A stretch of 48,273 nt of DNA from an uncultured beta proteobacterium (GTDB lineage: Bacteria > Pseudomonadota > Gammaproteobacteria > Burkholderiales > Burkholderiaceae_C), in the NCBI GenBank assembly GCA_903845935.1, contig CAIMZI010000050.1, positions 1 through 48,273 on the forward strand, given 5' to 3'. Made by a program: the position numbers and the translations under genes. The notes under the pieces are model-generated. The model had not been told where the DNA came from. It ran no database searches and saw nothing but the letters and a program-made list of their open reading frames with translations. This document shows, piece by piece, positions 7,416 to 44,921 of this stretch. Positions within the stretch are counted from its first letter, which is position 1; every line of letters starts with the position of its first letter.

Positions 7416-7434
7416 AGGAGGAGATGCACCATTG
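7416..7434 (+). promoter_or_regulatory. Strong Shine-Dalgarno that decides a TTG start for pilG
   Basis: AGGAGGAG at 7416-7423 is the best ribosome-binding site in the window. The ATG at 7424-7426 directly after it reads Met-His-His-stop, so it cannot be the start of the receiver. TTG at 7432-7434, eight bases from the site, opens the conserved receiver frame. Confidence 0.75.
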
Positions 7435-7830
7435 AGTACACCGGACAGGGTATTGAAAGTGCTGGTGGTGGACGACAGCAACACCATCCGGTGCAGTGCG
7501 GAGCTATTTCTCACGCAGGGCGGCCATCAGGTGTTGCTGGCCGAAGATGGTTTTGAGGCCCTGTCCAAGGTCAACGACGACCGGCCCGATCTGATTTTTT
7601 GCGATATCCTGATGCCGCGTCTGGACGGCTACCAGACCTGTGCCATCATCAAGCGCAATGCCCGGTTTTCCGATATTCCTGTGGTCTTGCTGTCCAGCCA
7701 GGATGGTGGTGTCGACCGGGCCCGTGGCCGCATGGCGGGCGCCCAGGACCACCTGAGCAAACCCTTTTCCAAGGAGCAACTGCTAGGCGCGGTGCAACAG
7801 TTTGGCGCCATGGCGCCAGGAGTACGCTAA
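7432..7830 (+). CDS. pilG: Pil-Chp response regulator PilG-like (single receiver, TTG start)
   Basis: A 132-residue stand-alone CheY-like receiver. It has the paired acidic residues in VLVVDDSNTIR, the phosphoacceptor aspartate in IFCDILMPRLDGYQTC, the switch serine in VVLLSSQDG and the lysine in LSKPFSKEQLL. The MPRLDGYQTCAIIK stretch is typical of PilG of type IV pilus chemosensory systems. It heads the row pilG-pilH-pilI/J-chpA and its stop overlaps the pilH ATG (TAATG), so translation is coupled. In the family it relays phosphate from ChpA to pilus extension and cAMP control. It looks intact although the receptor side of the operon is degraded. Confidence 0.9.
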   Translation: MSTPDRVLKVLVVDDSNTIRCSAELFLTQGGHQVLLAEDGFEALSKVNDDRPDLIFCDILMPRLDGYQTCAIIKRNARFSDIPVVLLSSQDGGVDRARGRMAGAQDHLSKPFSKEQLLGAVQQFGAMAPGVR

Positions 7831-8195
7831 TGGCCATTCACAAGGTGTTGATCGTCGACGACTCCAAGACCGAGATATGGTTCTTGACCGACCTGCTGCA
7901 GCGCAACGGCTTTGCGGTGCGCTCGGCCGAAAATGCCAGCGAGGCCTTTGCCCGGTTGGCCGAGGAGCGCCCGGACCTGATCCTGGTGGACGTGGTGATG
8001 CCGGGCCAGAATGGTTTCCAGCTGACCCGCTCCATCAGCCGCAGCCCGGACTTCACCGGCATACCTATCATCCTGTGTACCAGCAAGCGACTGGAGACCG
8101 ACCGCGTCTGGGGCATGCGCCAGGGTGCCAGCGACTACATCACCAAACCGGTAAACTCCATCGAACTGTTTGCCAAAATCAAGGCGCTGGGCTGA
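7830..8195 (+). CDS. pilH: Pil-Chp response regulator PilH-like (single receiver)
   Basis: A 121-residue receiver with an intact phosphorylation site. The acidic pair is in VLIVDDSKTEIWFL, the phosphoacceptor in ILVDVVMPGQNGFQLTR, the switch threonine/serine in IILCTSKRLETDR and the lysine in DYITKPVN. The motif DVVMPGQNGFQ is characteristic of PilH, the regulator linked to pilus retraction and to acting as a phosphate sink for ChpA. Its ATG at 7830-7832 overlaps the pilG stop, and the pilI-like ATG follows 7 bases after its stop. It shows no deletion or missing key residue, unlike the two genes that follow. Confidence 0.9.
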   Translation: MAIHKVLIVDDSKTEIWFLTDLLQRNGFAVRSAENASEAFARLAEERPDLILVDVVMPGQNGFQLTRSISRSPDFTGIPIILCTSKRLETDRVWGMRQGASDYITKPVNSIELFAKIKALG

Positions 8196-8202
8196 GCAAC
8201 CG

Positions 8203-8736
8203 ATGGCCAAGCGCGACGCACTGCGTGATCTTCAATTACGACTGGCCAAACGTCTGCAAGCGGCCCTGAGCCCGGTCCAGCCTGTGCCCTATACCAAACC
8301 CTGGTTCAAGGGCGTGCTCAATATCCGCGGCAGCCTGCTGACGTTGAATGTGGCATTGGATGTGAACTGTGCCCTGCAAATCGATCTGCTGGCCGGCTTG
8401 CGAGCCAGGGATGCCTTTGTCTCCAGTCGCCCCGCCGTCGGCGCTGCGCCGGTCTGGTTTGGCCACTGCCATGTCGATGCCGGGGGCCAAGCCTGGCAGG
8501 AGCTCAATTTGCAAGCGCTGTCCCACCCACCGCTGTCCAGCCCCACCATGTCTGTCACCAAGTTCATCACCCAACGATTCGCGGCCTTGGTGAAGGCGAT
8601 TCAGACCGACACCCAAGACGCCATAGGCGCCGTGGCGCGATCGACGCAGGGCGTGGTGCTGCAGCAGCCGGTGTCGCGCGGTGTAATGCCTGTTCGCTAC
8701 CGGGATTCAAACCATGCCAAGCACCGCCCCAGCTGA
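8203..8736 (+). CDS. Chimeric remnant of pilI fused to a scrap of pilJ
   Basis: The 177-residue product begins like PilI, the CheW-type adaptor (MAKRDALRDLQLRLAKRLQ). It jumps at about residue 21 to VQPVPYTKPWFKGVLNIRG, then at about residue 45 to LTLNVALDVNCALQIDLLAG. It runs to the PilI C-terminal motif WQELNLQALS near residue 107. By comparison with the family as I know it, roughly 35 residues and then about 25 residues of the beta-barrel are missing. From residue 125 to 152 it reads RFAALVKAIQTDTQDAIGAV-type sequence, which belongs to the signalling domain of the PilJ receptor. A short tail follows before ChpA. So nearly the whole of pilJ (normally over 600 codons) has gone, yet the frame stays open throughout. 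The end overlaps the chpA start by 23 bases. It is unlikely to fold as a CheW domain. Expression of a stable protein is doubtful. Confidence 0.75.
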   Translation: MAKRDALRDLQLRLAKRLQAALSPVQPVPYTKPWFKGVLNIRGSLLTLNVALDVNCALQIDLLAGLRARDAFVSSRPAVGAAPVWFGHCHVDAGGQAWQELNLQALSHPPLSSPTMSVTKFITQRFAALVKAIQTDTQDAIGAVARSTQGVVLQQPVSRGVMPVRYRDSNHAKHRPS

Positions 8737-11700
8737 ATCAGATTTGCAAGCGCTGGAGTCCCTGGGCTGGGTGCTGGACGAATTGCGCCATTCGCTGGAC
8801 GGCGCCACCCGGGCGATACGGCGCTTTGTGCGCGATACCGAACCGAGCAAACGCGACGCCAGCCATTTGCGCCTGGCGCTTCAGCAGCTGCACCAGGCCT
8901 TGGGCGTGCTGGAAATGGTTGGCATGGCGACCCCGGCCAAGCTGCTGCACGCCATGGAGGCGTCGCTGCAGAAATTGATACAGCAGCCCGAGCTGTGCAA
9001 TGAGGACGTGGCCCTGCGCATAGAGCGCGCCAGCTTGGCCCTGAGCGACTACCTGGCGGGCCTGCTTAAGGGTGCACCAGGCTCCAGCGTGGCCCTGTTC
9101 CCGCAATACCGCGCGCTGCTGGAATTGTCGGCGGCCGAGCGCATCCACCCGGCCGACCTGTGGCCGCCCGAGTGGCACTGGTTGTCGATCGAGACGCAGG
9201 TGCGCGTCGCGCCACTGCCCTATGTGCGCGAGGTACGCGCGGTGCTGGACCAGGCGGTGTTGAAGATCGTCAAGACCGCCGACCCACAGGCCGCGTCGCG
9301 CATGGCCCAGCTGTGCGCCGGTCTGTCCGCCGGCCAAAGTCAGCTGGAGCCGCGCAGCTTCTGGGCCATTGCTGCAGGCTATTTCCAGGCCATGGGCCTG
9401 TCCTTGCTGCCGGTGGATGTGTATACCAAACGCACCGCCTCGCGCATGCTGCAGCAGTATGCGGCCCTGGCCAAGGGCGATTCCGGCCCGAGCGAGCGGC
9501 TGGCGCAGGATCTGGTGTTTTTCTGTGGCCAGGCGCAGCCCCCGGCGGGCGTCAGCGCCCCGGCCCTGACGGCGGTGCGCGCCGCCTATGGGCTGACCGA
9601 TAGCGCGTCCGTGGATTACCAGACCGAGCAGTTCGGCCGCTTGGACCCGGCGCAGCTGGCGCCCCCCAGCGTGCCCGAACCGCAGGCACCGCTCGCCATG
9701 CCGGTGGCCGCCGTAGCGCTGGACTTCCCGCCCGAACCGCTGCCCAGCTCTGGGACCCTGGCGCAGGACGAGCAGACCAAGGTGATTGGCGAGCTGAGCC
9801 TGAGCATCGCGCTCTACAACGTCTACCTCAACGAGGCCGATGAGTGGTCGCGGCACCTGATGACCGAACTCGGCGAGTGGGCGCTGGAACTGCACCGCCC
9901 GCTAGCCGAATCCACCTTGCGTCTGGCGCATTCCTTGGGCGGTGCTTCGGCCACGGTGGGCTTTGAGGCGCTGACCGAATTGGCGCGCACGCTGGAGCAG
10001 GCGCTGCAGCAAGTGCAGTTGCACGGCCAGGGCACGGCCTTACAGGCACAGGTGTTGAATCATGCCGCCGAAGACATACGCCGTCTGTTGCACCAGTTTG
10101 CCGCCGGCTTTATCAAGACCGCCGACCCGCAGGTTCTGCAGCAACTGCGGCAGCTGATTGCCACCGAGTGGGTCGAGCCGAACAGCGAACGATCCGACCC
10201 ACTGGATGCCGACCTGTTCCCCATCTTTCAGGAGGAAGCCGCGGATCTGATGCCGGCCCTGGGCGTGGCTCTGCGCCAGTGGGTGGCGCGTCCGGACAAT
10301 CCGGGGGCGCGGGCCGAGGCCTTGCGCCTGTTGCATACGCTCAAGGGCAGTGCCCGTCTGGCCGGCGCCATGCGCCTGGGCGAGCTGGCGCATGGCATGG
10401 AATCCGACATCGAGGCGCTGGGCGCCCAGGCCCTGCACAGCCGCCAACGGGAGCCACTGCTGGCACAACTCGATGGCCTGTATGCGCAGCTGGCGGCATT
10501 GAGCCTGGCCCCGGACATGCGCCCGCTGCCGTCGGAGCCGGAGCCATCGACGCCAGATGCCCAAGCTGTGGCGCACCAGGCGGCACAACGCTGGCTGGAG
10601 CAGCCTGGTCCGACCCTGCCGCGCCATTCCGGGCAGTCGGTGCGGGTGCGTTCGCAATTGCTGGACCGCTTGCTGAACCAGGCCGGCGAGGTGATGATGA
10701 GCCGCTCGCGCATGGAAGGGCACATCGCCCAGATGCGCGGCTCGCTGCTGGAGCTCAGCCGCATGATGGTCGAATCGGTCAACGATGTGGCCACCGTGCA
10801 GCGCAGCCTGCAGCGCTCCATCGAGGGCTTACAGGACGATCTGGTGGCCCAGGGCCGCCAGGCGCTTGAACTGCAGCGCGATCTGTTGCGCACCCGCATG
10901 GTGGAGTTTGAGTCTATCGCCGAGCGCCTGTACGGCGTGGTGCGCCAGGCCGCCAAGGCCGAGGCCAAACAGGTCAGGCTGGACATCGTGGGTGGCAGCA
11001 TCGAAATTGACCGCGGCGTGCTGGACCGCATGACACCGGCCTTTGAACACATGTTGCGCAACGCCGTGGCGCACGGCATTGAGCCTGCGGCGCAGCGTGT
11101 TGCAGCCGGTAAACCGGAGCAGGGCAGCATCACGGTCAGCGTGCGGCAGGAAGGCAATAACGTCAGCGTGAGCTTTGTGGACGACGGGGCCGGTCTGCAT
11201 CTGGAGCAGATCCACGCCCGTGCCGTTGCCGCCAAGCTGATTGCGCCGGATGCGGCACTCAGCGAGGTCGACTCCGCCCGCCTGCTGTTTGCGCCCGGAT
11301 TTTCTACCGCCACTGCCATCACCGAGCTTTCGGGGCGCGGCATCGGCATGGATGTGGTGCTGACCGAACTTCATGCCCTGGGCGGTACGGTGGAAACCAG
11401 CACCGTGGTCGGCAAGGGCACCAGCTTCCGGCTGATCCTGCCCTTGACTGCGGCGCTCGCCCAGGTGCTGCCGAATGCCACAGCACAGACCCCGGTGGAT
11501 GGCCGAGCGCTGGTGCTGGTGGTGGACGGCTCCATCACCGTGCGCCGCGTCACGCAACGCCTGCTGCAGCGCGAAGGCTTTCGCGTGGCCCTGGCCCACG
11601 ATGGCCTGCACGCGCTGGAACTGCTGGCGCAGGAGAAACCGGCCGTGCTGTTGACCGACATCGAGATGCCGCGCATGGACGGTTTTGGCCTGGTGCGCGC

Positions 11701-11884
11701 TATCCGCGCCGACGCCCAGCTGCGCGATCTGCCGGTGATCATGATCACCTCACGCATGGCGCACCGAGATCACGCGGCCGAGCTGGGGGTGAACCACTAC
11801 CTCGGCAAGCCCTATTCGGAAGACCAGCTGCTGGCGCTGATCCGATCTACGCAGGCGGTCAACCCAACAGAGGGGTATTCATGA
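8714..11884 (+). CDS. chpA: Reduced ChpA/PilL-like hybrid chemotaxis kinase lacking its CheW domain
   Basis: A 1056-residue CheA-type kinase; ChpA proteins are often about twice this length. The N-terminal 130 residues resemble an HPt bundle without a histidine. Two HPt domains carry H406 (LAHSLGG) and H541 (LLHTLKGSARLAG). The dimerisation segment starts at VRVRSQLLDRLLNQAGEVM. The ATPase has HMLRNAVAHGIE, DDGAGL and GRGIGMDVV. After the last ATPase strand (FRLILPL) a P5/CheW-like domain of about 150 residues should follow. Here it is reduced to some 20 residues before the receiver begins (about residue 932). The receiver has D938 followed by G939 where a second acidic residue is normal; phosphoacceptor D982 and lysine (LGKPYSE) remain. 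The kinase core looks intact but the receptor-docking module is gone. The end overlaps the convergent exporter gene by 26 bases. Confidence 0.85.
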   Translation: MPSTAPAESDLQALESLGWVLDELRHSLDGATRAIRRFVRDTEPSKRDASHLRLALQQLHQALGVLEMVGMATPAKLLHAMEASLQKLIQQPELCNEDVALRIERASLALSDYLAGLLKGAPGSSVALFPQYRALLELSAAERIHPADLWPPEWHWLSIETQVRVAPLPYVREVRAVLDQAVLKIVKTADPQAASRMAQLCAGLSAGQSQLEPRSFWAIAAGYFQAMGLSLLPVDVYTKRTASRMLQQYAALAKGDSGPSERLAQDLVFFCGQAQPPAGVSAPALTAVRAAYGLTDSASVDYQTEQFGRLDPAQLAPPSVPEPQAPLAMPVAAVALDFPPEPLPSSGTLAQDEQTKVIGELSLSIALYNVYLNEADEWSRHLMTELGEWALELHRPLAESTLRLAHSLGGASATVGFEALTELARTLEQALQQVQLHGQGTALQAQVLNHAAEDIRRLLHQFAAGFIKTADPQVLQQLRQLIATEWVEPNSERSDPLDADLFPIFQEEAADLMPALGVALRQWVARPDNPGARAEALRLLHTLKGSARLAGAMRLGELAHGMESDIEALGAQALHSRQREPLLAQLDGLYAQLAALSLAPDMRPLPSEPEPSTPDAQAVAHQAAQRWLEQPGPTLPRHSGQSVRVRSQLLDRLLNQAGEVMMSRSRMEGHIAQMRGSLLELSRMMVESVNDVATVQRSLQRSIEGLQDDLVAQGRQALELQRDLLRTRMVEFESIAERLYGVVRQAAKAEAKQVRLDIVGGSIEIDRGVLDRMTPAFEHMLRNAVAHGIEPAAQRVAAGKPEQGSITVSVRQEGNNVSVSFVDDGAGLHLEQIHARAVAAKLIAPDAALSEVDSARLLFAPGFSTATAITELSGRGIGMDVVLTELHALGGTVETSTVVGKGTSFRLILPLTAALAQVLPNATAQTPVDGRALVLVVDGSITVRRVTQRLLQREGFRVALAHDGLHALELLAQEKPAVLLTDIEMPRMDGFGLVRAIRADAQLRDLPVIMITSRMAHRDHAAELGVNHYLGKPYSEDQLLALIRSTQAVNPTEGYS

Positions 11885-26024: not shown

Positions 26025-26111
26025 TGCCCGAAATGCTGTGATGATGCCAACACCAAAATGCCAGAAATGCGGCGCATCTCTGGACGGCCAAAACCTGGAG
26101 GCGAGGACCGA

Positions 26112-26633
26112 ATGAACCACAGTCAGACAGCTGGCAAGCAGAGGGAGCGCGTGATGCGGGAAGACGACTTCCTGGTGTCCAAGACCGACCTCAAGGGCCG
26201 CATCACCTACGGCAATCGCATCTTTATCGAATTCTCCGGCTATAGCGAGGCCGAGCTGCTGGGCGCGCAGCACAACATCGTGCGCCACCCCGACATGCCG
26301 CGTGGCGTCTTCAAGTTTCTGTGGGACACGCTGCAAGCCAAGCAGGAGTGCTTTGCCTACGTCAAGAACCGATCCAAGGACGGCGGCTTTTATTGGGTGT
26401 TTGCCAATGTCACGCCCTCTTATGCTGCCGATGGCAAGGTGGATGGATATTTTTCGGTGCGCCGCAAGCCGCGTGCCTCGGCCATAGCCGCGGTCACGGG
26501 TCTGTACCGACAAATGCTGGAAGAAGAAAACCGGGTGGGTAGCAAGGACGCCTGTGGCGCATCGCTGGCACTTTTGAACAATGCGCTGGCCCAACAGGGA
26601 GTGAGCTATGAGTCCTTCATTCTTTCAATCTGA
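26112..26633 (+). CDS. Aer-like PAS sensor protein without a signalling domain (CetB-like)
   Basis: A 173-residue soluble protein with a single PAS domain of the Aer redox type. [19 protein letters not shown] opens the fold, then the FAD-pocket-like [20 protein letters not shown] and [18 protein letters not shown]. Aer uses the same PAS with bound FAD to report electron-transport status. Here the protein ends soon after the PAS, with a helical C-terminus, and the MCP signalling protein is encoded by the next gene. The two genes overlap by 26 bases in different frames, which implies coupled translation. The layout matches the split CetA/CetB energy-taxis receptor of Campylobacter. The start ATG at 26112 follows a GGAGGCGAGG-like site (26097-26106). 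Confidence 0.85.
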
Positions 26634-28479
26634 AGCCGGGCGCTTTATCGCCGGGGCGCTGGTGCTGCTGGGCCTGGGGCTGGTGGCACAGGCACTGTGG
26701 TTGGGCGTGGCGCCACTGGCCCTGCTGTGTCTGCTGCCCGGCCTGCTGCTGCTGTTGTGGTGGGCCCGGCGCTTGCAGCAACAGAATGTGCTGCTGGAGC
26801 GGATCAGCCGGGTTGCCACCGAGGTGGCGCACGGCAAGTTTGAGCAGCGCCTGACTGGCATTGCCGAGGGCAGTGAACTCGGCGAGTTGTGCTGGAACAT
26901 GAACGACATGCTGGACCAGATTGAAGCCTGCTTTCGCGAACAGGCCACCGCACTGGGTCATGCCGCCAACGGGCATTACCGGCGCAAGGCCCAGACCACC
27001 GGGTTGCGTGGCGGCTTCCTGGAGTCGCAGCGCAGGACCAATGCCTCGCTCACCAGCATGGAAGACAAGGTCTTGCAGGAGCAAAAGACGGCCCGTGAAA
27101 AGCAGGTCGCTCAGGAGCGTGAGCAAACCGTGGCGAGCCAGAACCTGCGCATCAAGAGGGCACTCGACAGTCTGCCGGAAAGCGTCACCGTGTCCGATGC
27201 CGGTGGACTGCTGGTTCATGCCACACCGGCGGCGACCTTGCTGATGCAAAAACTGGGTGGGCCAGGCTTCCGGCTGGAAGCCTTGTTGGGCAAGCCGCTT
27301 AGCGCGCTGTTTCGCAGCCAGCAACAGGCCGCGCGTTTTGACGCAGCCATCGCTTCGACCGACGCGGTCGACCTGGACCTGGATGGACGCCATATCCGGC
27401 TGCTGGCCAAACCCATCAGTTCCGAGTCGGGCGAATCCATAGGCCGAGTCACCCACTGGCTGGACCGCACCGAAGAATTGGCCTCGGAACAGGAGCTGGC
27501 GCATATGGTCGGTGCAGCCGAGCAGGGAGACTTCAGCAAGCGCTTGTCCCTGCAGGGAAAGGCCGGCTTTTTTGCCTCGATGTCATCGGGCATGAATCAG
27601 TTGATGGACACCAGCGAGCAGGGCTTGCAGGACGTTGCCAAACTGCTGGCAGCATTCTCCGAGGGCGACCTGACGCAGCGCATCCAGCGCCAATATTCCG
27701 GTCTGTTCGGTCAGGTCGTTGGCAATGCCAATGCCACCGCCGACAGCCTGGCGCGGGTGCTGGGCGAAGTGCGCGCCGCCACCGAGGCGCTGACCGGCGC
27801 AGCCAACCAGGTCAGTGCCACCGCCACCTCGCTGTCGCAGGCTGCCAGCGAGCAGGCTGCCAGCGTCGACCAGACCTCGGAATCGGTCGATGCCATGTCT
27901 TCCTCGATCGCCCATAACAGCGACAACGCCCGCGTGACTGACGGCATGGCCACCAAGGCCAGCCGCGAGGCCACCGAGGGCGGCGAGGCCGTGGCCCAGA
28001 CCGTGGTGGCCATGAAGCAGATTGCGGCCAAGATCGGCATCGTTGACGACATTGCGTACCAGACCAACTTGCTGGCGCTCAACGCGGCCATCGAGGCCGC
28101 ACGGGCGGGTGAGCACGGCAAGGGCTTTGCCGTGGTGGCCGCCGAGGTGCGCAAGCTGGCCGAACGCAGCCAGTTGGCGGCCCGGGAGATTGGCGAACTG
28201 GCCGGCAGCAGCGTGGCCACTGCCGAGCGCGCCGGCACATTGCTCGATGAAATTGTGCCCAGCATTCGCAAGACCAGTGAGCTGGTGCAGGAGATTGCAG
28301 CGGCCAGCCAGGAGCAAAGCGGCTCGGTGGAGTCGATCAGCGGCGCCATGGGCCAGCTCAGCAAGGCCACCCAGCAGAACGCCTCCGCTTCCGAACAGTT
28401 GGCTGCTACCAGCGAGGAGCTGTCGGCCCAGGCCGAGCAGCTGCAGCAGTCGGTAGACTTTTTCCGCATTGGGGATTAG
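26608..28479 (+). CDS. Methyl-accepting chemotaxis protein, partner of the PAS protein (CetA-like)
   Basis: A 623-residue receptor. Two closely spaced hydrophobic segments (about residues 12-34 and 36-52) suggest a hairpin anchor with almost no periplasmic loop. HAMP-like helices cover about 55-110 ([17 protein letters not shown]). A degenerate PAS-like region lies near 180-300 and a second HAMP-like segment near 310-370. The signalling domain has the hairpin tip [20 protein letters not shown] followed by [20 protein letters not shown]. Lack of a periplasmic ligand domain and overlap with the Aer-type PAS gene suggest the PAS protein supplies the input. The sequence ends in [10 protein letters not shown] with no CheR-docking pentapeptide. 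A dispersed repeat begins right after the stop. Confidence 0.9.
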
Positions 28480-29421: not shown

Positions 29422-29493
29422 CGCGCGTGCATGCTGCGCCAATCTGGTGCGTTTATTGCTTGTGTAGGCCATCTAACTACAACAAAGTCTAGG

Positions 29494-31935
29494 ATGAACA
29501 CCGCCACAGAAATCGTTGCGCCGCGCATGCACGCCCTGCAAAAGCTGGAAAAGTCGCTCAAGCGGCTGGACCTCAGCTGGAAAGTGATTGAGACCACGGC
29601 GCGCGTGGTCAGTCCGCCGGAGTCGGTGGGCTTTATTGCCACGCTGGAGCACACCCGCTCCGCCTTCGGTCAATTGGCCGCCGAAATGGTGGAGCAGATT
29701 GCCCAAACGCATTGGGCCAACTGCCAGCACGACCTGGCCTCGCGGGCCCAGGTGGCGATCGACATTCTGGTGCGCAATCTGTTTGAACGCACCGCCGACG
29801 TCGGTTTTATTGCCACCGATGCGCCGTTGGTGGGCTTTGTTCTGGCACCGGAACAGCGCTCGCGCGATCGCTTGCAGGCGCGTCTCACCGAGTACCGCAA
29901 CAAGTACACCGTCTACGACGACATTCTGGTGCTGGATGCTTCGGCGCAGATTCTGTTGTCGCTGAAGGCTCGCAACGACCAAGCCACCGAGGCCCCAGTC
30001 TGGTGGGGTCAGGCCCTGGCACAGAGTGGCTACGTGGAGGCATATGGCCAAAGCGGCTTATTCAAGGCTGCGGGCCCTGTGCTGCTGTATGCCCACCGCA
30101 TCGTCTCGCCCGAGGGTTCGGTGTGTGGTGCGGTGGTGCTCAAATTCGACCTGCAGTCAGAACTGCGGTCCATCTTCAAGGCCCTGCAGGCGGCGAACAC
30201 CGGTCTGCTTCTGCTCGATGGCAAGTCCCGCGTGGTGGTCTGCAGCGATGCCACGTTTTCAGACCGGGAGTGCGTGGAGCTGCCGCCTGTCGCGCAGTCC
30301 AAGGGCCTGCTGCGGCACCGCGGGGCGGACTATCTGTTTGCGCATTGCCACACGCGCGGCTACCAGGGCTATGGCGGGCCGGGTTGGACCGCATTGGCCC
30401 TGGTCCGGCTGGATCAAGCCTTTGATGCCGACCCAGATGTCAGCGTGACGGACGCTACGGGCGTAATCGAGATCGAACTGAACAACGCCGAACTGCAGCA
30501 GATCATTGCGCGGGCGAGGGCTATCGAGCAAGACCTGAACCGCGTAATCTGGAACGGCAAGCTCAACGAGTCAAGCAACACGGCGAGCGCGGCGCTGGGG
30601 CCGGTGTTTGCCGAAATCGGGCGCACCAGCCAACAAACCATAGCGGCCTTTGACGGCGCCATTCTGGAATTGAAGCATCTGCTGTTGCAGGGGCGGCGCG
30701 CCGAGCTGGCAGCGCACGCCGCGCTGGCCGTTGACATCATGGACCGCAACCTCTACGAGCGCGCCAATGACTGCCGCTGGTGGGCGCTGTCGGAAGAGTT
30801 TGCCTCCCTATTGCAGACGCTGGAGGCGGGGTCGTCGGAGCCGTCGGTGCAGCGCGCCAGCGAGATCCTGGCCCAGCTCAACAGCCTGTACACCGTGTAC
30901 CGGCGCGTCGCCCTGTTTGACCGCCAGGGCCGCATTCTTGCGGTGTCCAGGGATCCGCAAAGTCTGGCCGCCAACAGCGCGATTCCGGCGGAGCTGCTGC
31001 AGAACACCCTGGCGCTCAAGGGAACCCAGGCCTATGCCGTGTCTGCCATGCAGCCACACGCGCTGGCCGATGGCGAGGCCACCTACCTGTATTGCGCGCC
31101 GATTCGCCAACCCGTTACCGAGCGACCCCTGGGCGGCATTGCACTGGCCTTCAACTGCCGCGATGAATTGCGCGCCATGCTGCAGGACTCCCTGCCGTTG
31201 GGTGCCGCTGCGTGGGGCTTTTTTGTCGACCGCGAGGGCCGGGTGCTGGCCAGTACCCATGCCGATGTTTCCGTGGGCGAGCTGCCTGACTTTGCCAGCG
31301 CGCTGCAGACCGGGGTGGCCGACGCCGCCTGCCAGTGGCAGGGACGCAGCTATTTGTTGGGCCTGGCGCAGAGCCAGGGTTACCGCGAATTCAAGACCTC
31401 GGACGGCTACCGGGATGAGGTGCGCTCGGTGTTACTGGCGGCGGTCGATCCGGCCCCGCAGCGCCACACCAGCCCGATCCTGCCACAGGCGAGCCCAGGT
31501 GCTGGCAGTGCGCACTTCGGCGTGGTGCAATGCGGCGCGATGCTGTTTGCCTTGGCCAGCAAGCATGTGATTGAGGCGGTGTCGGCAGCCACGCTGGGCG
31601 CGCCGGTGGCTGCTTCCGACACGGTAGGCCTGCTCAAGGTGATGCTGGACGGCGAGTTGGTTGTGCTGCCGGTGTACGACGGCTGTCGGCTGAGCGGCCA
31701 GGCGCCCATGTCCGACCCGGCCGCTGCAGTCGCCATCGTGGTGCACGGTGCGGACCGCAAGCTGGTGCTGTTGGTGGACCGACTGGTGGATGTGATTGTG
31801 TGCGACAGCCTGGCGCCGCCGCCGGGTGGCATGAATCCCGATGTGCCCTGGATCAGCGGCTACCTGCACGACGGGCTGGCCCATACCCAGCCGGTGTTTG
31901 CGTTGGATCCCGGCAGTCTGCGACTGACACCTTAG
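29494..31935 (+). CDS. Soluble tandem sensor-CheW protein (two duplicated cache-like modules plus CheW)
   Basis: An 813-residue protein with no signal peptide or membrane segment, so cytoplasmic. It consists of two similar halves of about 300 residues each. They share a signature near residue 90 (DILVRNLFERTADVGFIA) and again near residue 414 (DIMDRNLYERANDCRWWALS). Each signature is followed by YTVYDDILVLD / YTVYRRVALFD strands and a PAS/cache-like sheet. The last 130 residues form a CheW-like domain (HFGVVQCGAMLFALASKHVI, LPVYDGCRLSG, KLVLLVDRLVDVIV). No MCP signalling hairpin is present. It would bind a small molecule and dock to CheA/MCP arrays through CheW. The start at ATG 29494 is chosen over 29431 because the upstream codons lack family-like sequence; AGG directly precedes it. 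Confidence 0.8.
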   Translation: MNTATEIVAPRMHALQKLEKSLKRLDLSWKVIETTARVVSPPESVGFIATLEHTRSAFGQLAAEMVEQIAQTHWANCQHDLASRAQVAIDILVRNLFERTADVGFIATDAPLVGFVLAPEQRSRDRLQARLTEYRNKYTVYDDILVLDASAQILLSLKARNDQATEAPVWWGQALAQSGYVEAYGQSGLFKAAGPVLLYAHRIVSPEGSVCGAVVLKFDLQSELRSIFKALQAANTGLLLLDGKSRVVVCSDATFSDRECVELPPVAQSKGLLRHRGADYLFAHCHTRGYQGYGGPGWTALALVRLDQAFDADPDVSVTDATGVIEIELNNAELQQIIARARAIEQDLNRVIWNGKLNESSNTASAALGPVFAEIGRTSQQTIAAFDGAILELKHLLLQGRRAELAAHAALAVDIMDRNLYERANDCRWWALSEEFASLLQTLEAGSSEPSVQRASEILAQLNSLYTVYRRVALFDRQGRILAVSRDPQSLAANSAIPAELLQNTLALKGTQAYAVSAMQPHALADGEATYLYCAPIRQPVTERPLGGIALAFNCRDELRAMLQDSLPLGAAAWGFFVDREGRVLASTHADVSVGELPDFASALQTGVADAACQWQGRSYLLGLAQSQGYREFKTSDGYRDEVRSVLLAAVDPAPQRHTSPILPQASPGAGSAHFGVVQCGAMLFALASKHVIEAVSAATLGAPVAASDTVGLLKVMLDGELVVLPVYDGCRLSGQAPMSDPAAAVAIVVHGADRKLVLLVDRLVDVIVCDSLAPPPGGMNPDVPWISGYLHDGLAHTQPVFALDPGSLRLTP

Positions 31936-42909: not shown

Positions 42910-43968
42910 TTGACTTCAATTGATCATACCCGTGCGACTGTGGATCAGCTCGGTGCGTTCGACGCAATTCTCGATGCACGCAGCCCTTCCGAATTTGCCG
43001 AAGACCATATTCCCGGCGCCATCAACTGCCCGGTGCTGGACGACCAGCAGCGCATCACTGTGGGCACGCTGTACAAGCAGGTGTCGGCCTTTGACGCCCG
43101 CAAGCTCGGCTCCGTGCTGGTGGCACGCAATATCGCCATGCACATCGAGACCCTGTTTGCCGACAAGCCCAAGGGCTGGACACCGCTGGTGTACTGCTGG
43201 CGTGGCGGCCAGCGCAGCGGCGCCTTCACCCACATCCTGCGCGAGGTCGGCTGGCAGGCCAAGCGCCTGCAGGGCGGCTACAAGAGCTGGCGCGGCCATG
43301 TCATCGAGCAGCTCGATATAGCTCCCAAGGCGCTGCGCTTTACCGTAGTGGCCGGGCCCACCGGCAGCGCCAAGACGCGCATCCTGGAGGCCATGCAGGC
43401 CCAGGGCCAGCAGGTGCTGAACCTGGAGGCGCTTGCCGCCCACAAGGGTTCGGTTCTGGGTGATCTGCCGGGTCAGCCCCAGCCCTCGCAAAAGGGTTTT
43501 GAGACCCTGGTGCTGGATGCGCTTGCGAAGTTTGATCCGGCGCTGCCCGTCTATGTGGAGTCTGAAAGCAAGCGCATAGGCCAGCTGCGCGTGCCCGATG
43601 CCGTGTTTCAGGGCATACAGGATGGCAACTGGTTGCGCGTGCAGGCCAGCATGGAGCAGCGCGTGCAGTTTTTGCTGCGCGACTACGACTATTTTTTAAG
43701 CGGCCCGGAGCTTGAGCAGCAGCTGGAGCGGCTGAAGGAATCCTGTGGCGGCGAGACCGTGACACGCTGGAAGGGGCTGGCGCAAGCCAAGGATTTTGCT
43801 ACTCTGGTGGCTGAGTTGCTATCTCAGCACTACGACCGCTTCTACCTGCGCTCCATGAGCAAGCACGCCGAAGGCTCTACCCACGCCAGTTTTGCCACCG
43901 ACGACTTGTCGGATGCAGGCATTGCGGCGCTGGCCCGTGACATTGCTGCCAGCGGCCAGAGCGCTTAG
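42910..43968 (+). CDS. selU: tRNA 2-selenouridine synthase (TTG start)
   Basis: A 352-residue enzyme that swaps sulfur for selenium at the wobble uridine of certain tRNAs. The N-terminal rhodanese domain has AILDARSPSEFAEDHIPGA and the catalytic cysteine in LVYCWRGGQRSGAFTHIL, near residue 97. The C-terminal P-loop domain starts with VVAGPTGSAKTRILEAMQ; the loop reads GPTGSAKT, with alanine where glycine is usual before the lysine. GSVLGDLPGQPQPSQKGFE follows. No ATG fits; TTG at 42910 gives LTSIDHTRATVDQL, in line with the family start. A weak GGGA lies upstream. It is divergent from selD, its functional partner, and overlaps the convergent cheV end by four bases. Confidence 0.93.
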   Translation: MTSIDHTRATVDQLGAFDAILDARSPSEFAEDHIPGAINCPVLDDQQRITVGTLYKQVSAFDARKLGSVLVARNIAMHIETLFADKPKGWTPLVYCWRGGQRSGAFTHILREVGWQAKRLQGGYKSWRGHVIEQLDIAPKALRFTVVAGPTGSAKTRILEAMQAQGQQVLNLEALAAHKGSVLGDLPGQPQPSQKGFETLVLDALAKFDPALPVYVESESKRIGQLRVPDAVFQGIQDGNWLRVQASMEQRVQFLLRDYDYFLSGPELEQQLERLKESCGGETVTRWKGLAQAKDFATLVAELLSQHYDRFYLRSMSKHAEGSTHASFATDDLSDAGIAALARDIAASGQSA

Positions 43969-44921
43969 CGCGACCGGGCAACTACTTCCAGAATCTTGCT
44001 GCCCAGCTCCTCGGCGACAAACTTGCCAACATAGGCATCGGCACCGGCGGTTCTGGCGTGATTCTCGGTGGCGGTGCCCGACAGCGAGGAGTGGATCATC
44101 ACCGGGATGCCGGCAAAGCGCGGGTCGTCCTTGATATTGCGCGTCAGCGTAAAGCCGTCCATTTCCGGCATTTCCAGGTCGGTCAGCACCAGGGCCACAC
44201 GGTCGCGGATCGGTATGCCTTGCGAAGTCGCTTGGGCATGCATGCTGGCCAGGCGCTCCCAGGCTTCCTTGCCGCTCTTGGTCATGATCACGGGAAGGTT
44301 CATGGCCTTGAGGGCCTGCTCGATCATCATGCGCGCCACGGCCGAGTCGTCGGCGGCCAGAATCACCGAGCCCGGCGGTATCGAGCCCTTGGGCATGACC
44401 TGGTCCTCGCTAAAGCTGCGGTGCTGGTCGGGGAATACGTCGCGCAGGATTTGCTCCACATCCAGCACCTGGGCCAGGCGGCTGCCGTCGCCGTCCAGCC
44501 GCGCCAGGCTGGTGACCAGACCGCCGCCCGTGCCTTCGGCAGACAGCGCCTGCTTCCAGTCCAGGCGCACGATCTCCACGACTTCTTCCACGGCAAAGGC
44601 CTGGGTGGTGCGGGAAAACTCCGTGACCAGCAAAATGCCCAGTCCCTTGGCAGGCGTGCAACCGACGATTTGCGGCAGGTTGATCACCGGAATCAGCTGT
44701 CCGCGCACGTTGGCAATGCCCATTACATTGGGCGATGCGTTGACCACGGAGGTGATCTCGGGCATGACCATGATTTCGCGCACCTTGAACACATTGATGC
44801 CAAACAGCTCGTGTTTGCTGTTGTCGCCGGGTTGGCCCAGACGGAACAGCAGGAGTTCGAACATGCTGCTGCTGGCCGCGGTACCGCGTTTTTCCTTTTC
44901 GGATGCGAAAGATGAAGCCAT
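43965..44921 (-). CDS. cheV: CheV chemotaxis adaptor (CheW domain plus receiver)
   Basis: A 318-residue cytoplasmic protein. Residues 20-170 form a CheW-like domain (FELLLFRLGQPGDNSKHELF, FKVREIMVMPEITSV, NVRGQLIPVINLPQIVG). Residues 185-315 form a receiver with AADDSAVARMMIEQAL, phosphoacceptor in ALVLTDLEMPEMDGFTLTR, and the lysine in DAYVGKFVAEEL. CheV links receptors to CheA and is adjusted by phosphorylation of its receiver. It is an intact CheW-family adaptor, in contrast to the eroded PilI at 8203-8736. The ATG at 44919-44921 gives MASSFASEKEK. It converges with selU. The upstream region to 45050 (129 bases) shows no recognisable promoter box. Confidence 0.93.
   Translation of the reverse strand: MASSFASEKEKRGTAASSSMFELLLFRLGQPGDNSKHELFGINVFKVREIMVMPEITSVVNASPNVMGIANVRGQLIPVINLPQIVGCTPAKGLGILLVTEFSRTTQAFAVEEVVEIVRLDWKQALSAEGTGGGLVTSLARLDGDGSRLAQVLDVEQILRDVFPDQHRSFSEDQVMPKGSIPPGSVILAADDSAVARMMIEQALKAMNLPVIMTKSGKEAWERLASMHAQATSQGIPIRDRVALVLTDLEMPEMDGFTLTRNIKDDPRFAGIPVMIHSSLSGTATENHARTAGADAYVGKFVAEELGSKILEVVARSR

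Follow-up and report, generated by a model that had tools for sequence, protein, structure and literature searches.

Can the kinase of a Pil-Chp chemosensory system persist once the parts that couple it to receptors are gone? This question is raised by an operon in a stretch of 48,273 nucleotides, hereafter the window, which is contig CAIMZI010000050.1 (C50) of an uncultured beta proteobacterium whose genome comprises 3,885,217 bases in 134 contigs (100% complete, contamination 2.38). The genes run in the order pilG, pilH, a pilI/pilJ remnant (8203-8736) and chpA (8714-11884). Two HPt histidines and the P4 motifs of ChpA are retained, while the receptor-docking parts of the system are lost. 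We tentatively favor a reduction that kept the reading frame and left a receptor-independent HPt kinase; the putative kinase and PilH would have been kept and PilG let go. Slow decay of the pathway is nearly as likely as a working kinase, and the sequence alone does not decide between the two.

The accessible text of PMC10782961 describes CheA as lacking a sensor domain of its own, with an input that depends on receptors, and lists P1, P3, P4 and P5 as its core domains, P5 being counted among them. The same text reports CheW in 100% of 13,673 CheA sequences, a set that may be partly selected for CheW; its archaeal members were gathered via the CheW domain. The operon of the window has the following features, all on the forward strand (+).

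7432..7830 (+): pilG, full length (132 residues), phosphorylation residues retained, rapidly evolving, with changes at residues 86-96 and 107-109
7830..8195 (+): pilH, full length, under normal constraint
8203..8547 (+): pilI remnant, two internal blocks gone, CheW fold not predicted, continuing in frame into the pilJ remnant
8548..8736 (+): pilJ remnant, MSVT start, about 32 codons like PilJ 646-677 and a 7-codon tail, its open reading frame (ORF) ending inside chpA
8714..11884 (+): shortened chpA, 1056 residues with N-terminal region, HPt domains, P3, P4 and receiver (REC), without P5/CheW
9659..9748 (+): place where chpA has lost its largest block, which takes in a canonical HPt of the relatives, with 40 residues from DPAQL to KVIG as against 552-821 in nine relatives
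9929..9931 (+): HPt His406, HSLGGAS motif
10334..10336 (+): HPt His541, HTLKGSA motif
10634..10993 (+): predicted P3 dimerisation hairpin, lacking 50 residues that 10 relatives have, with the junction near 10748
10994..11470 (+): P4 ATPase, motifs HMLRNAVAHGIE, DDGAGL, GRGIGMD and GKGTSF
11471..11509 (+): linker at the missing P5/CheW domain
11510..11851 (+): receiver domain, VVDGS instead of VVDDS, 2-residue deletion

Loss of the receptor-coupling parts

An earlier interpretation, made from the letters of the window (the sequence-only reading), held that pilG and pilH are complete, that pilI lacks two internal blocks, that pilJ is reduced to a short stretch and that ChpA passes from its ATPase to its receiver without P5/CheW. 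Each of these statements was borne out. PilG and PilH are full length and retain the functional residues of receivers, namely the DD pair, the Lys and the Asp that is phosphorylated. As compared to PilI of the near relative G006, 31 residues are gone after residue 21 and about 30 after residue 45, so that what remains is residues 1-21, a 24-residue stretch around VQPVPYTKPWFKG and some 60 residues from the C-terminal half. The CheW score of this PilI, 16.3 bits, lies under the Pfam cut-off of 23.5, and the protein is thus not recognizable as the adaptor of a Pil-Chp system. Of pilJ about 43 codons survive, which encode MSVT, about 32 residues (8566-8661) with 78% identity to G006 PilJ 646-677, and a 7-residue tail, so that no PilJ receptor remains here. 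In a structure model, the pilI/pilJ remnant was predicted to form three strands and no CheW barrel, with a mean predicted local distance difference test score (pLDDT) of 62.8, and this model matched no PDB entry at E<=0.001.

ChpA is 1056 residues long, whereas the 21 loci of the same genus that have a long ORF reach 1815-2137. Six residues are gone after residue 46. After residue 315, a block of more than 500 residues including an HPt is missing, as measured between the DPAQL and KVIG anchors in nine relatives (the tenth has no anchor). P3 lacks 50 residues after residue 678, a number that is identical in the comparisons with each of 10 relatives. Following residue 919, the CheW domain is gone, where 21 residues separate PLTTA from the VVDDS position, as against 168-179 in 10 relatives, and the receiver has lost two residues. 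A length difference near residue 490 was not counted, the linker there being variable in the relatives as well (6-81 residues). The list of losses in the sequence-only reading was therefore correct and incomplete: it had left out the HPt block, the 50 residues of P3, the 6 residues, the receiver changes and the fast evolution of PilG.

Of the CheA core domains, ChpA retains P1, P3 and P4. Pfam detected Hpt (78.7 bits) in three stretches, with the H406 and H541 motifs of a P1/HPt domain, and HATPase_c (52.2 bits), which together with the motifs and the fold identifies a CheA P4 ATPase. The receiver was also matched. The H-kinase_dim score of 22.2 bits is slightly under the cut-off of 23, and P3 is recognized by a predicted two-helix hairpin and a fold match to CheA P3P4; dimerisation through it is a prediction. 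No CheW match was found by Pfam in ChpA up to E=1, and a P5/CheW domain is thus lacking.

AlphaFold2 modelling of ChpA 621-1056, with 40 sequences, gave a mean pLDDT of 83.2 and a predicted template modelling score of 0.56. In P3, two helices were predicted (fragment residues 27-64 and 70-108, pLDDT about 67-81), and P4 and REC mostly scored near or above 90. The best PDB match of the model was 4xiv, the P3P4 of Thermotoga maritima CheA (E=3.3e-21). The shortened P3-P4 is thus predicted to keep the CheA fold.

Frame keeping and recurrence

All 10 junctions examined continue in the reading frame of the relatives, in agreement with the earlier claim of open junctions, and the four ORFs contain no stop or frameshift. 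DNA identity to G006 and G014 is 72-85% across the retained blocks, with gaps between them. By a naive one-third rule, ten in-frame junctions would have a probability of 1.7e-5. However, two similar coding repeats (GAGCTCAC and GAACTGAC in G102) border the P3 junction, and the true probability is less extreme, because such repeats favor in-frame loss.

An assembly or consensus artefact of this contig would account for the same pattern with no biology behind it. We regard this as very improbable, and nothing speaks for it. At 99% identity, 19 sequences of the pilI/pilJ remnant cluster together, spread over 57 contigs of up to 900,721 bases, and the ChpA cluster P0001 comprises 27 member sequences; these members were counted rather than viewed singly, and some contigs may share source samples. 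The cluster representatives P0121 and P0001 differ from the window copy by one and two residues, respectively. Since the remnant recurs at 99% on 57 contigs, with small differences among copies, an assembly slip is unlikely, and ten frame-keeping errors within one operon are implausible. Moreover, the neighboring thiD and hemL genes, which lie upstream and divergent from the operon as they do in G006, are full length, as are the pilus genes. A scan for promoters and terminators gave no signal exceeding chance.

Selection on the operon

To compare rates, omega (dN/dS) on the window branch was set against the background in two-ratio codon models. The neighboring genes showed 0.045 versus 0.052 (hemL, p=0.64) and 0.036 versus 0.054 (thiD, p=0.29). 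pilH is normally constrained, at 0.078 versus 0.041 (p=0.14), with omega=1 rejected (3e-9). The retained pilI codons gave 0.268 versus 0.169 (p=0.18), below 1 (p=7e-5). For chpA the values were 0.215 versus 0.111 (p=4e-7), with omega=1 rejected (1.5e-30). This rise was found in the N-terminal region (p 0.0085), in HPt (0.0089) and in P3-P4 (0.0019), where omega is 0.185 and 1 is again rejected; in REC it was not clear (p=0.099). pilG stood at 0.322 versus 0.036 (p=1e-7), and omega=1 was weakly rejected (0.017). Thus the dN/dS check that had been proposed gave a divided answer: chpA is under purifying selection, and pilG is strongly relaxed.

The branches of other near genomes served as controls, giving 0.001-0.051 for pilG (eight branches) and 0.023-0.151 for chpA (eight branches). 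Some controls were themselves deviant, being high for hemL on G118 (p=2.5e-5) and low for hemL on G006 (1.3e-5) and G079 (0.049), thiD on G006 (0.0065), pilG on G044 (0.022) and chpA on G118 (3e-8). The control tests being uneven, we relied on the contrast and not on the p-values.

Columns that are otherwise invariant were also counted. In PilG, the window has changed 12 of the 94 that do not vary among 19 other genomes (controls 0-2), several of these changes lying at residues 86-96 and 107-109, where residue 107 presumably takes the place of CheY Tyr106 on the output side. In PilH, the count was 2 of 75 (controls 0-2), in HemL 1 of 277 (0-7) and in ThiD 0 of 139 (0-14).

Had all the excess omega of chpA arisen in a period of complete neutrality, some 248 neutral changes and about 7.2 stops should have accumulated; no stop is seen. 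By the same reckoning, merely 0.9 stops would be expected in pilG, which may therefore be free of constraint.

A working kinase or a decaying pathway

The frame kept at all ten junctions, the lack of stops, the chpA omega of 0.215 and the well-formed predicted P3-P4 lead us to favor a working kinase. The parts that link to a receptor array are gone, those needed to make and hold phosphoryl groups are kept and the frame is preserved, as expected from selection for a stand-alone kinase. The receptor-independent HPt kinase feeding PilG and PilH, as first proposed, accordingly survives in its kinase part, which frame, omega and fold support, and is not supported in its PilG part, given the omega of 0.322 versus 0.036 and the 12 of 94 columns. 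The putative kinase more likely serves PilH than PilG.

Several observations weigh against an in-frame reduction that left a functional kinase. In pilG constraint is strongly relaxed, and in chpA omega has doubled, with 46 of 436 otherwise invariant ChpA columns changed (controls 0-17). When set beside P0030, the closest relative found that has an intact ChpA, the window protein carries 25 private changes versus 6 (p=9e-4); in REC they number 4 to 3, the per-domain counts being too small to tell. From the acidic pair of the ChpA receiver, one Asp has gone (VVDDS to VVDGS). The second Asp is present in 138 of 139 fetched proteins of at least 500 residues having the pattern, the sole exception being P0001. 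In CheY this Asp binds Mg2+, and the ChpA receiver is therefore probably weak. On some control branches, the p-values of the likelihood-ratio tests behave irregularly, and the low omega is partly inherited, because the branch includes the time before the deletions. Repeats flanking at least the P3 junction would favor in-frame loss even without selection. Finally, PilI is essential for twitching in P. aeruginosa, according to the accessible part of PMC12632253.

The relaxation of PilG, the damage to the ChpA receiver and the acceleration are the expected results of stepwise decay, in which the input was lost first and the pathway is now eroding, frames staying open as the loss is recent or as upstream frame breaks would be polar on a residual role of chpA. 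This alternative, already raised by the sequence-only reading, remains a serious one, to which we give slightly less credence than to the reduction. It also agrees with the destruction of PilI and PilJ, and pathway loss is probably tolerated in the genus, since 19 of 103 genomes have no ChpA match at E<=1e-30. On the other hand, decay would not lead one to expect ten of ten junctions in frame, an absence of chpA stops against about 7.2 expected, a normal PilH or a ChpA cluster of 27 member sequences (not viewed singly). If decay is the true account, the pathway is being taken apart starting at its input, and PilG was freed of constraint earlier than PilH.

ChpA may instead have lost its kinase activity and act as a scaffold or phosphate sink, with its HPt domains binding PilH (and PilG) and holding or draining them. 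The retention of the HPt domains and of PilH would fit such a role. However, a scaffold would need neither the full set of P4 motifs nor the constraint on P3-P4 that rejects an omega of 1, and we consider this explanation improbable.

Returning to the favored in-frame reduction, a stronger version holds that P5, receptor and adaptor were shed under selection, yielding a receptor-free, steady-state PilH kinase that gives type IV pili a fixed set-point; we view this as possible, though less likely than not. In the favored reduction itself, ChpA would dimerise via the shortened P3 hairpin, and P4 would act steadily and without stimulation, phosphorylating H541, H406 or both. PilH, on which constraint is still normal, would be the main acceptor of the phosphoryl group, and PilG would receive less of it or none. 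With its HPt chain shortened and its receiver damaged, ChpA would have no internal relay. The pilI/pilJ remnant is probably retained as a translated leader that delivers ribosomes to the overlapping chpA start. Such a pathway would fix the level of pilus activity rather than report surface or chemical cues. In the accessible parts of PMC12632253 and PMC10519157, PilH of P. aeruginosa affects PilB indirectly, by inhibiting the phosphorylation of PilG.

The pilus machine and possible replacement parts

A second pilJ or pilI, which had been named as a finding that would overturn the earlier interpretation, was sought in the genome, and none was found. G006 PilJ had 27 matches, one of which is the remnant; the other 26 cover the C-terminal half only, from residue 416 onward, at 30-38% identity. 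G006 PilI matched the three remnant pieces, plus two weak matches, and nothing else. Ten CheW-family matches were detected in the genome, none of them within this operon.

The pilus structural genes, also proposed for a search, are present: PilB scores above the NCBIfam cut-off, with a T2SSF-family PilC next, and the genome also encodes PilM, PilN, PilO, PilP, PilQ and two ATPases of the PilT/PilU kind, all of these proteins being full length. Thus the core pilus machine is present and its Chp input is absent; control of that machine by the operon is putative.

Elsewhere in the window, 29431-31935 (+) encodes a possible sensor-CheW fusion of 834 residues, in which dCache_1 (residues 457-609) is combined with a C-terminal CheW (27.1 bits against a cut-off of 23.5) and no kinase domain is matched. 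At 26058-28479 (+), a 191-residue PAS-domain protein overlaps the start of a 623-residue HAMP/MCP protein, the C-terminal part of which is Aer2-like. A CheV-like protein with CheW and a receiver lies at 43965-44921 (-).

Comparison with known kinases

The window ChpA shares with the ChpA of the Tfp class of CheA (P. aeruginosa, Burkholderiales) its place in a pilG-pilH-pilI-pilJ-chpA operon, HPt, P3, P4 and the C-terminal receiver. It differs from that class in the lack of P5/CheW, the shorter P3, the missing HPt-bearing block, the damaged receiver and the absence of PilJ and PilI. With classical CheA (E. coli, T. maritima) it has in common the predicted P3-P4 fold and the HPt-to-receiver logic, whereas its several HPt stretches, C-terminal receiver and lack of P5 set it apart. 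Laboratory truncations of CheA without P5 autophosphorylate and no longer respond to receptors and CheW. Unlike those truncations, which have a single HPt and no receiver, the ChpA of the window is natural. A natural P5-less ChpA with HPt and ATPase still constrained would make it possible to examine cleanly what a chemosensory kinase is capable of when uncoupled, and also to test for a receptor-independent role of Pil-Chp.

Distribution of the shortened ChpA

The P4-REC part of ChpA was matched in 84 of the 103 genus genomes (own included) at E<=1e-30, and among the matches listed from them it was matched in one piece only by this genome. At E<=1e-58, 3 of 399 family genomes gave matches; the two others cover residues 1-180 and 1-198 of 286 and lie in frames of 2106 and 2176 residues. 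Among the best 120 of 7400 proteins, only P0001 fully covered P4-REC (others 42-72%), and among the best 120 of 929 it was the sole one with ATPase and receiver and without CheW; about 8000 candidates were scored in both of these protein searches. No other species with this state was found among the matches listed in the genus, family and protein searches, in which a diverged ChpA could miss the thresholds. P0298, a candidate P5-less ChpA with no precomputed CheW, was rejected, as it retains a damaged CheW region (21.3 bits). In titles and abstract openings, which largely leave out subscription journals, we found no report of a P5-less ChpA or of this operon state.

The 19 genus genomes that have no P4-REC match at E<=1e-30 include many that are small or incomplete, and loss of the entire pathway within the genus is likely. 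In a metagenomic ChpA-like protein, P0221, the P4-P5 part is repeated almost exactly, probably as an assembly effect.

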